From positions 1,550,001 to 1,614,000 of the forward strand of contig NZ_CP020946.1 of assembly GCF_002208115.1 (NCBI RefSeq): a stretch of 64,000 nucleotides of DNA, read 5' to 3'. The notes beneath the pieces are model-generated. The model saw only the letters and a list, made by a program, of their open reading frames with translations, searched no databases and had not been told where the DNA came from. This document shows positions 12,963 to 17,849 of this stretch, piece by piece. The stretch's first letter is position 1; the number at the start of each line of letters is the position of its first letter. The stretch is from Bdellovibrio bacteriovorus (GTDB lineage: Bacteria; Bdellovibrionota; Bdellovibrionia; Bdellovibrionales; Bdellovibrionaceae). Both the position numbers and the translations under genes were made by a program.

Positions 12963-15530
12963 TTAGAACAGTTCTCCGGACATGTTCAGACGATAGGCCG
13001 TGCCGTCGAATATTTTGAAAGAGTTATCGTTAGAGTCCCAAAGAACGTCGTCAAGACTGCGGTACTGACTCATGGGGAAGTTCAGGGTTTGGACGCTGTT
13101 GTTACCAAAGCTTTGGTTTTCGGAACCGTCACCTTTCCATGATTTCATGACGAGGTTCTGACTGTAATCAAGACCGAAAACATAAAGGTTTCCCTGGGAG
13201 TCAATGCTTAAGGCATCTCCACCCCAGATATTTGTATCGATCCAGAAGTCCGTGGTGGTGCTGATATATCCATTTCCAGAACCGAATGAAGTATCCAGCG
13301 TTCCATCGGGTTTATAACAATTGATGAAGATCATTCCATCCCACGATGGCATTTCATAGCCGTCAAAGACTGTATAAAGCCGGCCGTCAGGCGCAAACTC
13401 AAGGCCCATAGTGGCGTGATCAGAGTCGGTGTCCATGCGCAGTTCCACATAGCCGTCTCCACTGAAGCTGGAATCGACATAGCCATCCTCAGCAATCATC
13501 AGCAGGAACTGGGCTGCATTCATGGAGCCATCATAGGAAAGACCTGCTATCACCGTGCGGCCATCGGCCGCCTGCTTCATCGTTATCAGATCATAAACAT
13601 CGCCCGGAGGGATTGTGATCACATTCAAACCTGTGCCTCCGAATCCCAAGTCCCGCGTCCCATCCGCCAGAATTTTTGCAGTGATAATGTTGTCACCGTT
13701 GTTGAGGATTCCCACGGACTCGCCATTGTCGTGAAATGCACAGAACCAGGGATAGGCATTGCTGCCGTTATTAATTGTTTCAGTGTAAATTCCATTGACC
13801 CCGAAACTTAAGTCCCGGCTGCCATCGGGATGGAACTTTGCGACTGAAAACTTTGTTCCCGTGGACTCGCCACACACCATGATACTGCCGTCGGCCAAGT
13901 GTTTCAGGGTGAGTATTTTTTCATAATCGTTCTCAAAAACATCACGAATATAGCCGTCGTCACCAAATTGAGTCTGAATGACGCCGGATTTGTCTGTCTT
14001 CACAATGAAGACTTTTGCGGATCGGGCCTCGAATCTTCCGGCATACAAAAAGGTGTTGTTGTCCAATTTGTATTGTATATCGGGCTGGCCATTGTCGGTG
14101 GCGGCGGCAAAGATGGATTCGTGTTTTCCCGCGCTGGCAAAGCCAGGATCCGGACTCATCGCCGTATTAAACTTTCTGATCAAGGCTGAATAGTAAAGCG
14201 GTTCTAGAGTGGTGCCCTGGCCCGCGGCGACGATGTCGCCATTCGCTACAAAACGCAGCAGGCGAAAGCTGTCGCTGCCGTTATAGGTGATCGTGCCACC
14301 CGTACCATGAGAGGCATCCAGCGTCCCGTTATAGTTGTACTGGGAAAGAAGAACTTTGCTGAACGTTCTTAAATTATCATAGGGAAAGGACAGTCTTTGG
14401 GTTTCGGTATAGGCGATCTGAATGTCGTTGTTTGAACTTCCGTCAAGAACACCTCTGACATCAAGCACGCCATAACTTAATGTGGCGTGAGTGAACATCA
14501 GTGTTCCGGTGGAATTGAAGCCGGTGTCAGGGGTTCCGTTGAGGTTGCAGACAACAATCAATCCCTGGTCTCGTTGATTTGATCCGCCCGCCGTGGCCGT
14601 GTTGCCGAAGATAACAAGGCGATCATTGTTTAATTTTTTTAAGCCGATCCAGCGAACCGTGTCGACAGCCGCCGTTGACGGGTAGGCGGTCGTAAAGCCG
14701 CCATCTTCAACACCGCTGATATTGAACTTTCGCAGTTTCACTCGGTCTGCGGTTGGCACGTGGTTCAGCAGATAGATTTCGCTGTCCGAAACATATAATA
14801 TATCCTGCGGGTTTTCAGCACCGGCCGCGTTCGAGAAGACCTGAATGCCTCCCGTGCCGTGGTTGGTATCAAGAGTTCCGTCAGTGTTTATCAGAAAAGT
14901 TGTGGCTTTGTATTGGGTGTCCATGCGATAGGAAGCAACCAGAATCTTTCCAGAGTCCGTGATCGCCATCTTCCGGCCATAAACGGCGTTACCAGTTTCT
15001 GTGCGATTGTATACGCCCTCGGTTCCAAAACCTGTATCGATGTGTCCTGTTGTTGAAAGCTTCAGAACGTTGAATCCATTTTGAGTGGGATTTGAAAATA
15101 GGATGAATGTGCCGTCATCTGAAGTTTTCATGTCGACGATGCCGGAAAGCGTGCTGCTGGGAAGGTCAACATAGCCATCTTGCCCGTAGGTCAGATCCAG
15201 CGAACCGTCTGTATTTAATCGAAAAAGAAGGGGCTTGGTATAGTCGTAGAAATTTGAATGATAAAATTGTCCCACAATGATTTTACCGTCTGATTGAGTG
15301 TTCAGCAGGCGGGGATTCATGTTCACTTTGTTGGACCCGTTGATTTTCAGAATACCAGACACCCCAAATTCATGCAGTGCGACCGAGGGCGCAGATTCTG
15401 TTTTCATCGTCAGATTCAGAATGTCGGCTTCCAAAGTGCAACCCGTGAAGGCCACAGCAAAGTACAAGTGACCCACGATGGAAAGGGCTCTTTGAGTAAG
15501 AAATCTCATAAAACGCGCAGAATTACTCAT
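12963..15530 (-). CDS. Delta-60 repeat lipoprotein
   Basis: 855 residues. After an N-terminal hydrophobic segment with a lipobox-like FTGC, the protein consists of tandem repeats of about 50-60 residues with the delta-60 signature: strands such as GKIIVGQFY, then LFRLNTDGSLDLTYGQDG, repeated as DGTLDTNHGTGG, DGSRDLSFGVNG, DGTRDLGFGGTG and DGTLDTSFGSGN. This repeat is abundant in predatory and myxobacterial surface proteins and probably forms a beta-propeller. No catalytic residues are evident; adhesion or scaffold roles are possible. The first in-frame ATG is used, but no good ribosome site is visible there. Confidence 0.85.
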   Translation of the reverse strand: MSNSARFMRFLTQRALSIVGHLYFAVAFTGCTLEADILNLTMKTESAPSVALHEFGVSGILKINGSNKVNMNPRLLNTQSDGKIIVGQFYHSNFYDYTKPLLFRLNTDGSLDLTYGQDGYVDLPSSTLSGIVDMKTSDDGTFILFSNPTQNGFNVLKLSTTGHIDTGFGTEGVYNRTETGNAVYGRKMAITDSGKILVASYRMDTQYKATTFLINTDGTLDTNHGTGGIQVFSNAAGAENPQDILYVSDSEIYLLNHVPTADRVKLRKFNISGVEDGGFTTAYPSTAAVDTVRWIGLKKLNNDRLVIFGNTATAGGSNQRDQGLIVVCNLNGTPDTGFNSTGTLMFTHATLSYGVLDVRGVLDGSSNNDIQIAYTETQRLSFPYDNLRTFSKVLLSQYNYNGTLDASHGTGGTITYNGSDSFRLLRFVANGDIVAAGQGTTLEPLYYSALIRKFNTAMSPDPGFASAGKHESIFAAATDNGQPDIQYKLDNNTFLYAGRFEARSAKVFIVKTDKSGVIQTQFGDDGYIRDVFENDYEKILTLKHLADGSIMVCGESTGTKFSVAKFHPDGSRDLSFGVNGIYTETINNGSNAYPWFCAFHDNGESVGILNNGDNIITAKILADGTRDLGFGGTGLNVITIPPGDVYDLITMKQAADGRTVIAGLSYDGSMNAAQFLLMIAEDGYVDSSFSGDGYVELRMDTDSDHATMGLEFAPDGRLYTVFDGYEMPSWDGMIFINCYKPDGTLDTSFGSGNGYISTTTDFWIDTNIWGGDALSIDSQGNLYVFGLDYSQNLVMKSWKGDGSENQSFGNNSVQTLNFPMSQYRSLDDVLWDSNDNSFKIFDGTAYRLNMSGELF

Positions 15531-15761
15531 GTAATATTAATCGGTTTAAGCAGAGGTAACCTCAAGAAGCGTTTACCTTTAGAAAGTGGATAAGCTGTTT
15601 ATTACAGCAACTTAAGAGCGACATCTCATTTTGATACAAGAGAACTGACACTTCTGGCGCGCTGACAATTCCTTAACCATACCAGATCCCATAAAAGCAC
15701 AAGCCCGGTGGGTCCAAACTGTGCAGCTAGATACCTGAATTATTTAATTTAAGGGTGTATC

Positions 15762-17849
15762 ATGTTGAGACAGTTGCGGTTCTTGATATTATTCATACTG
15801 ATCCTCGGTCGCTTTGCCTGGGCGGTGACGCCAGAAAAAGTGGGCCTTCATCTTTCTTTCGAAGAAAGACTGGCGCTGACCTATGCCCTGATGGCGCAGG
15901 GTGAAACCGCTGAAAATAAAGAGCAAATTCTTGAAAGAGCCAAAAACTATTTCTCGGCTGTTTATCAAGCTGAAGTCGAGACTGTCAAAGTCCGCAACTT
16001 TGATGAGTTTTTAAAACTTCACAAAGGTGAGTGGCCGAACACTCACAGCGTGGCTTTGGATCTGGAAATGATCGAAGCCCGTGGGGCGAAACCCATGCGC
16101 ACATACACTTCCGACAGCGCGCGCGTTCAGAAGCAGATTGAAAACTATTTGGAATGGCAGCAGCAAAAACTGAAAGACATGGTTCCGCAGGATCAGCTTG
16201 AGCAAAAGATGCCTATGGAAGCCCTTGCGGCTCAGGTGATGGCTTTGGCGCAAAACCCGGACGGCCAGAAGCTGGCTGAAGGCTGGGTCCTGGCTGAAAG
16301 TGATGCTCTGTTAACTGAAAAGATGAAAGAACTGGATCGTGTGGGTGAAAAGATCGCGGAATCCAAGCTGGGTCAACAGCAGGATGCGACGATGAAGATC
16401 TTCCTGCAGACCATGTTCAGTGAATACTTCCGTCGTTTAAGCCCGGCTTCGAAAAAACTGATTGTGTCTTCTTACCTGGGCAGTGATCTGAATATGCCGG
16501 AGATGAAAAAGTTTGAACTGATGGTTCAAAACAGCGGACCGCAACTGCAAAAGTTGCTTCAAGTGGTGGCTCGGCAGGCGGATCTGGGACCTGATATGGT
16601 TGAGGTCTTCCGGGGTCTTGAGAATTCTGTGCGCCCGGTGCCTTGGTCGCAAGTGGAAAAGCTTTTGAGCTCTGAAAATGGCAACTATAAGTTCACCTAT
16701 TTTGAAAGAAAAGCACTGGGTGTGGGAACGATGGCTCAGGTTCACCGCGCGAAAGTCGTCATCGATGGCGAGCGCCGTGATGTGGTTGTGCGTTTCATCA
16801 AACCGGGTATTGCCGACAGAGTTGAAGAAGACAAGCGCATTCTGATGGATGTGGCTGAAATTCTGGATTCAAACCCCGAGTTCCGTAAAACCGGGGCTCC
16901 GAAACTGACTCCGGTGGTTCAGGATATTACGGACACCGTTTTGGCAGAACTCAGTCAGGAAGACACGATTGCCCGTCAGAAGCTGGCGGCGACTCGCTAT
17001 GAAAAAATGGCTTTCATGAATACGCCGGATTATAAGAACGACATCCAGTTCCATGTCCCGAAGATCTACGACGGCAAAAAAGGCTCCAAATTCATGGTGC
17101 AGGAGCTTGTTATCGGGAAAAAACTGGATAAAGAAGTGGCCCTGTACAAAGAGATTGCTCCGGAAATGAAACGCGTGATCATTGAGCAAATGGCCCGCGT
17201 CTGGGCCCAGGAAGTGATGTTTGGTGGCGGGTTCTACCATTCCGATCTGCACCAGGGGAACTTCATGATCCAGGTCACCGAGCCAAAAATTATTGTGAAC
17301 ATTCTGGATTATGGAATGGGTGGGGTGATCACTCGTGACATGCAGACCCAAGTCATGTTGTTGGGGGCAGGTACGGAGCTGTTGAATTCTGAAATCATGG
17401 CGCGGGCCTTCTGGAATATCGCTGACAAACAAAAAAGCACGATCACTCAAAGTCGTCTGCAGTTTATGATCGAGGCAAAAATGCATAATATCCGTCACGG
17501 CTATGAGCAGCCTTTGACGATGGAAATGTGGACGGCCTGGGTTATGGATCTGGGACTTCGTCTGCCTTATGAGTTTGTCAGTTTGAATCGAGGTATCGTG
17601 ATCGTGAATAAGCTGCTGGCCGATGCCGGCAGTAAAATGTCCATCAGCTCATTGATGAAAAGTATGGCCGTTAAAAACCCGGCCCGCGTTTACAAGGCTT
17701 TGGCGATTGAGGGCAAGATCTCTCACAAAGAATTGGTGAAGCTTGGGTGGATTGAAATGAAAGACATGCTGGGCTTGTCTCCGAAGGTCCTTCCTGCAAA
17801 AGTGGCGACTCCGGCAGCGGTTGTTCGTTGTGAAATGGTGTTCAACTAG
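15762..17849 (+). CDS. ABC1/UbiB-family atypical kinase-like protein with an export signal
   Basis: 695 residues. A hydrophobic N-terminus (FLILFILILGRFAWA) looks like a signal peptide or membrane anchor. The ABC1 domain spans about 255-530. Recognisable elements are KLLQ at 264-267 where the family has KxGQ, ALGVGTMAQVHRA at 318-330 where an Ala-rich loop is usual, VVVRFIKPG with Arg344 where the ATP-binding Lys sits, Glu396/Glu400, HSDLHQGN with Asp495 and Asn500, and DYG at 516-518. ABC1 proteins normally act in the cytoplasm on quinone synthesis. Export plus altered ATP-site residues suggests a pseudokinase or a divergent function. No C-terminal membrane helices follow. Confidence 0.85.
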   Translation: MLRQLRFLILFILILGRFAWAVTPEKVGLHLSFEERLALTYALMAQGETAENKEQILERAKNYFSAVYQAEVETVKVRNFDEFLKLHKGEWPNTHSVALDLEMIEARGAKPMRTYTSDSARVQKQIENYLEWQQQKLKDMVPQDQLEQKMPMEALAAQVMALAQNPDGQKLAEGWVLAESDALLTEKMKELDRVGEKIAESKLGQQQDATMKIFLQTMFSEYFRRLSPASKKLIVSSYLGSDLNMPEMKKFELMVQNSGPQLQKLLQVVARQADLGPDMVEVFRGLENSVRPVPWSQVEKLLSSENGNYKFTYFERKALGVGTMAQVHRAKVVIDGERRDVVVRFIKPGIADRVEEDKRILMDVAEILDSNPEFRKTGAPKLTPVVQDITDTVLAELSQEDTIARQKLAATRYEKMAFMNTPDYKNDIQFHVPKIYDGKKGSKFMVQELVIGKKLDKEVALYKEIAPEMKRVIIEQMARVWAQEVMFGGGFYHSDLHQGNFMIQVTEPKIIVNILDYGMGGVITRDMQTQVMLLGAGTELLNSEIMARAFWNIADKQKSTITQSRLQFMIEAKMHNIRHGYEQPLTMEMWTAWVMDLGLRLPYEFVSLNRGIVIVNKLLADAGSKMSISSLMKSMAVKNPARVYKALAIEGKISHKELVKLGWIEMKDMLGLSPKVLPAKVATPAAVVRCEMVFN

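Follow-up and report, generated by a model that had tools for sequence, protein, structure and literature searches.

A predicted periplasmic ABC1/UbiB-fold protein of Bdellovibrio with a clade-wide rebuilt nucleotide pocket

A 695-residue ABC1-family protein of Bdellovibrio is predicted to be exported and belongs to a clade in which the residues that normally bind ATP have changed together and the catalytic core has been kept. The protein is therefore probably an envelope protein that uses the UbiB fold without ordinary ATP. Our preferred reading, to which we give a probability of about 0.4, is a periplasmic protein from an extracytoplasmic ABC1/UbiB branch found across Bdellovibrionota, with a remodelled phosphate-ligand pocket that would serve lipid or isoprenoid handling without cytosolic ATP. 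Sequence comparison supports predicted export, a KxxQ lid, invariant Asp/Asn/Asp residues, a rebuilt pocket and a cysteine tail that replaces the membrane helices. The UbiB family is old and conserved, and the role of its kinase-like site is still disputed.

Results

The gene and its setting

The window analysed (64,000 nucleotides) covers bases 1550001-1614000 of a Bdellovibrio-type genome that forms a single contig of 3.77 Mb. The open reading frame list and its translation gave a frame for 695 aa with an ATG start and the following features.

15751-15755 (+), Shine-Dalgarno-like AAGGG before the ATG, the same or nearly the same in divergent orthologs
15762-17849 (+), predicted exported ABC1/UbiB-fold protein of 695 aa (Pfam, AlphaFold and COQ8A match)
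15762-15824 (+), predicted Sec signal peptide, residues 1-21, with cleavage predicted after AWA (rule-based scan); its sequence diverges among orthologs
15828-16487 (+), N-terminal domain, residues 23-242, mainly helical (pLDDT 86.4 when modelled alone)
17829-17831 (+), Cys690 in a conserved C-terminal tail, the sole cysteine of the mature protein

The Pfam ABC1 profile PF03109 matched residues 286-532 with 103.1 bits (cut-off 22.9, E 1.7e-29), and the NCBIfam UbiB equivalog TIGR01982 scored 110.9 bits, under its cut-off of 487.55. The genome encodes four ABC1 proteins, of which this one is the most divergent by ABC1 score (105.9 bits in that comparison, 184-259 bits for the other three). The gene is under strong purifying selection: dN/dS was 0.023 and 0.032 against two close orthologs, values that rule out pseudogene decay.

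No conserved operon partner was found, the gene adjoining different genes in different genera and sometimes lying near lysS. The divergent upstream frame (12963-15530, minus strand) encodes an 855-aa repeat-rich protein, the position of which is not conserved among the compared genomes. A promoter and terminator scan at the gene scored no better than shuffled sequence.

Relatives

Within the genus, an ortholog was present in 21 of 24 genomes, counting G017, where the gene is split over contigs. Three genomes of 99% completeness (G005, G013 and G025) do not have it; thus the genus as a whole does not depend on the gene. Across the phylum, roughly fifty of the 291 genomes sampled carried a member of its clade (E below 1e-42). 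A genome scan with the single protein as query returned no matches, and in an alignment-based scan the clade members among the matches listed were all from Bdellovibrionota.

Three sets were compared: the clade of the 695-aa protein, hereafter the Arg clade (59 distinct, deduplicated members, each from Bdellovibrionota), canonical ABC1 proteins (66), and an exported group from Bdellovibrionota that retains the ATP-binding lysine (11: L157, L158, L161, L163-L165, L168-L171 and L073), of which G313 and G319 each encode two. With the trait columns masked, these groups were separated at SH-aLRT values of 98-100 in an unrooted quick-search tree of 50 Arg-clade, 12 exported Lys-type and 27 canonical rows.

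More divergent proteins were also seen. L167 (from G075; 1274 aa) and L166 (from G197; 1012 aa) are ABC1-like, long and exported, and their motifs have changed further (HADLQPAN and DWG; QQLFQ, the lid lysine missing). A Lachnospiraceae contig, L096, carries three adjacent large ABC1-like frames (1143, 1740 and 819 aa) with LMQKVMQ-type lids and the lysine retained.

Export and the C-terminal cysteine

The protein begins with MLRQLRFLILFILILGRFAWA, followed after the predicted cleavage site by VTPEK; this N-terminus holds two arginines, a hydrophobic core and then AWA. Signal peptides were called by a rule-based scan rather than by SignalP. On that basis a Sec-type signal was present in every Arg-clade member with a readable N-terminus (L018 and L154 being judged by eye), and an N-terminal signal was found in none of the canonical proteins. 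In several Bacteriovoracaceae members the signal ends in a lipobox cysteine (LLISC in L044, VSAC in L047, IVSC in L135 and LTSC in L154), which is an independent form of the same export call.

The distribution of cysteines and membrane helices agrees with this location. A hydrophobic helix near the C-terminus was detected in 60 of the 66 canonical proteins versus 0/59 in the Arg clade. Internal cysteine content is about six-fold lower in the Arg clade than in canonical relatives (0.06% vs 0.33%). A cysteine lies within the last 50 residues of 58/59 Arg-clade members and of all 11 exported Lys-type proteins, compared with 9/66 canonical ones, and the lone Arg-clade member without it stops at a contig end. 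Judged from sequence, internal depletion combined with a tail cysteine is the pattern expected from an oxidising compartment, and the 695-aa protein is predicted to be exported and periplasmic.

The first-pass annotation of this DNA had proposed an export signal or anchor, which these observations bear out, and had named a downstream start as the finding that would undo it. A GTG at codon 22 is indeed in frame and would yield a cytoplasmic protein. That codon is not conserved in the orthologs; these repeat the signal and the ribosome-binding motif, with AAGGGTGTATC-ATG or close variants recurring upstream of divergent orthologs. Given also the lipobox forms and the cysteine depletion, a mis-called start is hardly credible. 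The same annotation had suggested action inside prey, which finds no support here: lipoprotein predictions place many relatives in the bacterium's own envelope, and no predation-linked genes adjoin this one.

Structure

The AlphaFold model of the whole protein (pLDDT 88.2, pTM 0.82) has a UbiB-type kinase-like fold, in keeping with the PF03109 match. Its top solved match was human COQ8A (5I35; Z 16.4, rmsd 4.3, 348 aligned residues), followed by mycobacterial ABC1 proteins and RIO kinases. The N-terminal region is common to the whole Arg clade. The corresponding domain matched no Pfam family; against solved structures Foldseek gave no hit at E<=0.001, and VIA-align and Foldseek gave weak matches only (best Z 3.3). 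Such weak matches of a predicted model are not proof of a new fold.

The nucleotide pocket

The changed and the conserved positions of the nucleotide and catalytic site are as follows.

16551-16562 (+), KLLQ (K264-Q267), at the KxGQ motif; K and Q never vary, and a hydrophobic residue replaces G
16620-16622 (+), Glu287, specific to the clade; mostly Gln in canonical proteins
16719-16730 (+), GVGT loop (320-323) instead of the Ala-rich loop; Gly322 is at the COQ8A Ala339 position
16791-16793 (+), Arg344, replacing the beta3 ATP lysine (COQ8A Lys358), from multiple alignment counts
16800-16802 (+), Lys347, the reciprocal exchange; mostly Arg in canonical proteins
16965-16979 (+), Thr402 (where COQ8A has the alpha-C residue Glu411) to Gln406 (new), from the multiple alignment
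17244-17261 (+), catalytic loop D495-x-H-x-G-N500, invariant
17307-17315 (+), D516-Y-G, counterpart of DFG; Asp invariant
17589-17591 (+), Arg610, counterpart of COQ8A Arg611, invariant

COQ8A has a pair formed by Lys358 and Glu411, an Ala-rich loop that gives it a preference for ADP, and a catalytic Asp held by Arg611; the Ala339Gly substitution reverses the ADP preference and permits autophosphorylation (PMC4718504). The beta3 position is R in 57, G in 1 and K in 1 of the 59 Arg-clade members, versus K in 66/66 canonical proteins. At the alpha-C position the clade has T 41, A 12, S 4, G 1, K 1 and E 0, where canonical proteins have E in 66/66; this assignment of Thr402 depends on the multiple alignment, phmmer placing COQ8A four residues off there. 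The Lys-Glu pair is thus replaced by Arg344 and Thr402. The position of Ala339 is G in 56 and A in 3 (A in 64/66 canonical), so that the protein does not have the Ala-rich loop of UbiB/COQ8 proteins. In 59/59 the glycine of KxGQ has given way to a hydrophobic residue (L, I, F, V or M), where 66/66 canonical proteins have Gly; the 695-aa protein reads KLLQ at this motif. Of the ExD motif, the protein has E396-L-S398, and in the clade the Glu is mostly retained and the Asp variable.

Other changes accompany these. The canonical Arg at position 347 is Lys in about 98% of the clade, so residues 344 and 347 have swapped identities. Glu287 is present in 97% and position 406 is Q in 54, H in 4 and E in 1; one Glu has been gained at 287 and another lost at alpha-C. 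K264, Q267, D495, N500, D516 and R610 are unchanged in 59/59. Since the K-to-R, Ala-to-Gly and KxGQ-to-KxxQ changes are fixed across the clade, they are not chance, and on the alignment they are a coordinated clade signature rather than one protein's quirk. Side-chain pairings among the changed residues are guesses.

The first-pass annotation had correctly placed KLLQ, GVGT, Arg344, Asp495, Asn500 and Asp516, and its altered nucleotide site now extends to the clade, with relatives that combine the signal and the K-to-R change. Thr402, Lys347, Gln406, Glu287, Cys690 and the absence of C-terminal membrane helices go beyond it. It had also named relatives with canonical motifs as a finding that would refute the idea, and on this point the result is mixed. 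No member of the Arg clade has the canonical set, but the exported sister group comes closer: all 11 retain the beta3 Lys and alpha-C Glu, and 8 have Ala in the loop. That group otherwise resembles the Arg clade in being exported and long, with a C-terminal cysteine and a hydrophobic KxxQ in every member. An exported group that still has Lys, Glu and usually Ala suggests that export is older than the change in the pocket. It follows that a lack of periplasmic ATP alone cannot explain K-to-R, and that extracytoplasmic nucleotide binding may occur.

Discussion

The closest comparisons are with three known systems. The 695-aa protein resembles COQ8A/ADCK3 (4PED, 5I35, 7UDP) in the lid Lys and Gln, the Asp/Asn/Asp residues and the Arg611 counterpart; unlike COQ8A, it has Arg at beta3, Thr at alpha-C, Gly at the Ala339 position, no KxGQ glycine, an extra N-terminal domain, predicted export and a cysteine tail. 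The mycobacterial proteins Rv3197 and MSMEG_1954, which bind macrolides and ADP, share the ABC1 fold (Z 12-14) and were solved with a small molecule; they are reported as ATPases (PMC8696161). The yeast UbiB proteins Cqd1 and Cqd2 face the intermembrane space and control CoQ distribution, in line with the link of the family to isoprenoid quinones (PMC8346625, PMC10214851). They are likewise UbiB-type, and a membrane separates them from the matrix; however, the known CoQ/lipid role is theirs, they are membrane anchored and they depend on kinase-like residues, Cqd1 being inactivated by E330A, a substitution intended to prevent ATP binding (PMC8346625). Orthology is not claimed. Our literature search, with supplements outside it, found no paper naming such a Bdellovibrio ABC1 protein.

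Lipid or isoprenoid handling is our leading guess because Cqd1 and Cqd2 act outside the matrix on CoQ distribution; the first-pass annotation had likewise suggested that the protein may bind another ligand, such as a lipid or quinone. In this mechanism the pocket would still accommodate a ligand carrying phosphate or metal, which Arg344 and Lys347 would recognise in place of the Lys-Glu pair. Ligand binding would shift the hydrophobic KLLQ lid, and the protein would extract, carry or sense a lipid or isoprenoid of the envelope with no hydrolysis of cytosolic ATP. The cysteine tail may tether it through a disulfide. Several points weigh against this proposal. Cqd1 and Cqd2 require kinase-like residues, whereas the clade has lost Lys and Glu. 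The invariant Asp/Asn/Asp would also suit real catalysis, the exported sister leaves room for extracytoplasmic nucleotide binding, and the Glu411 counterpart is subject to the alignment offset noted above. Moreover, no lipid gene was found in a conserved operon with the gene.

The most serious competitor, unlikely in our estimate, is an exported pseudokinase scaffold, with the pocket a ligand-gated or static module and the protein acting by protein-protein contact, for example through a Cys690 disulfide or the N-terminal domain. This reading would fit the fact that almost every member lacks beta3 Lys as well as alpha-C Glu, and also the conserved cysteine tail and the N-terminal region of the whole clade; the aligned Asp495, Asn500 and Asp516 argue against a bare scaffold, being conserved beyond the needs of a plain one.

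Somewhat more doubtful is the broader idea of an extracytoplasmic enzyme class on the UbiB fold, in which an Arg/Lys/Gln set would replace Lys-Glu for envelope phosphate-ligand chemistry without cytosolic ATP. We know of no ATP supply in the compartment of the exported clade. Slightly less probable again is an exported ATPase, kinase or nucleotidyl-transferase acting on extracytoplasmic nucleotide, for instance from digested prey. It would account for the invariant catalytic residues, for Gly322 at the position that unlocks autophosphorylation in COQ8A (PMC4718504) and for the Lys and Glu of the exported sister group. Lys and Glu are both gone in the Arg clade, however, and with the glycine present but that pair lost a plain kinase is unlikely; the ATP source is only putative, and many relatives are predicted to sit in their own envelope. 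A phosphotransferase with a non-ATP periplasmic donor such as undecaprenyl diphosphate would suit retained catalytic residues in an ATP-poor compartment and the isoprenoid ties of the family, and we regard it as improbable.

The Arg clade has naturally made the change engineered in COQ8A as Ala339Gly; it has also lost the Lys-Glu pair, retained its catalytic residues and, by prediction, moved compartment. A soluble, exported and nearly cysteine-free UbiB member would offer a tractable way to tell the ATP-dependent part of the mechanism from the part that handles lipid. With it, Bdellovibrio and its relatives gain an envelope family that is as yet unstudied.
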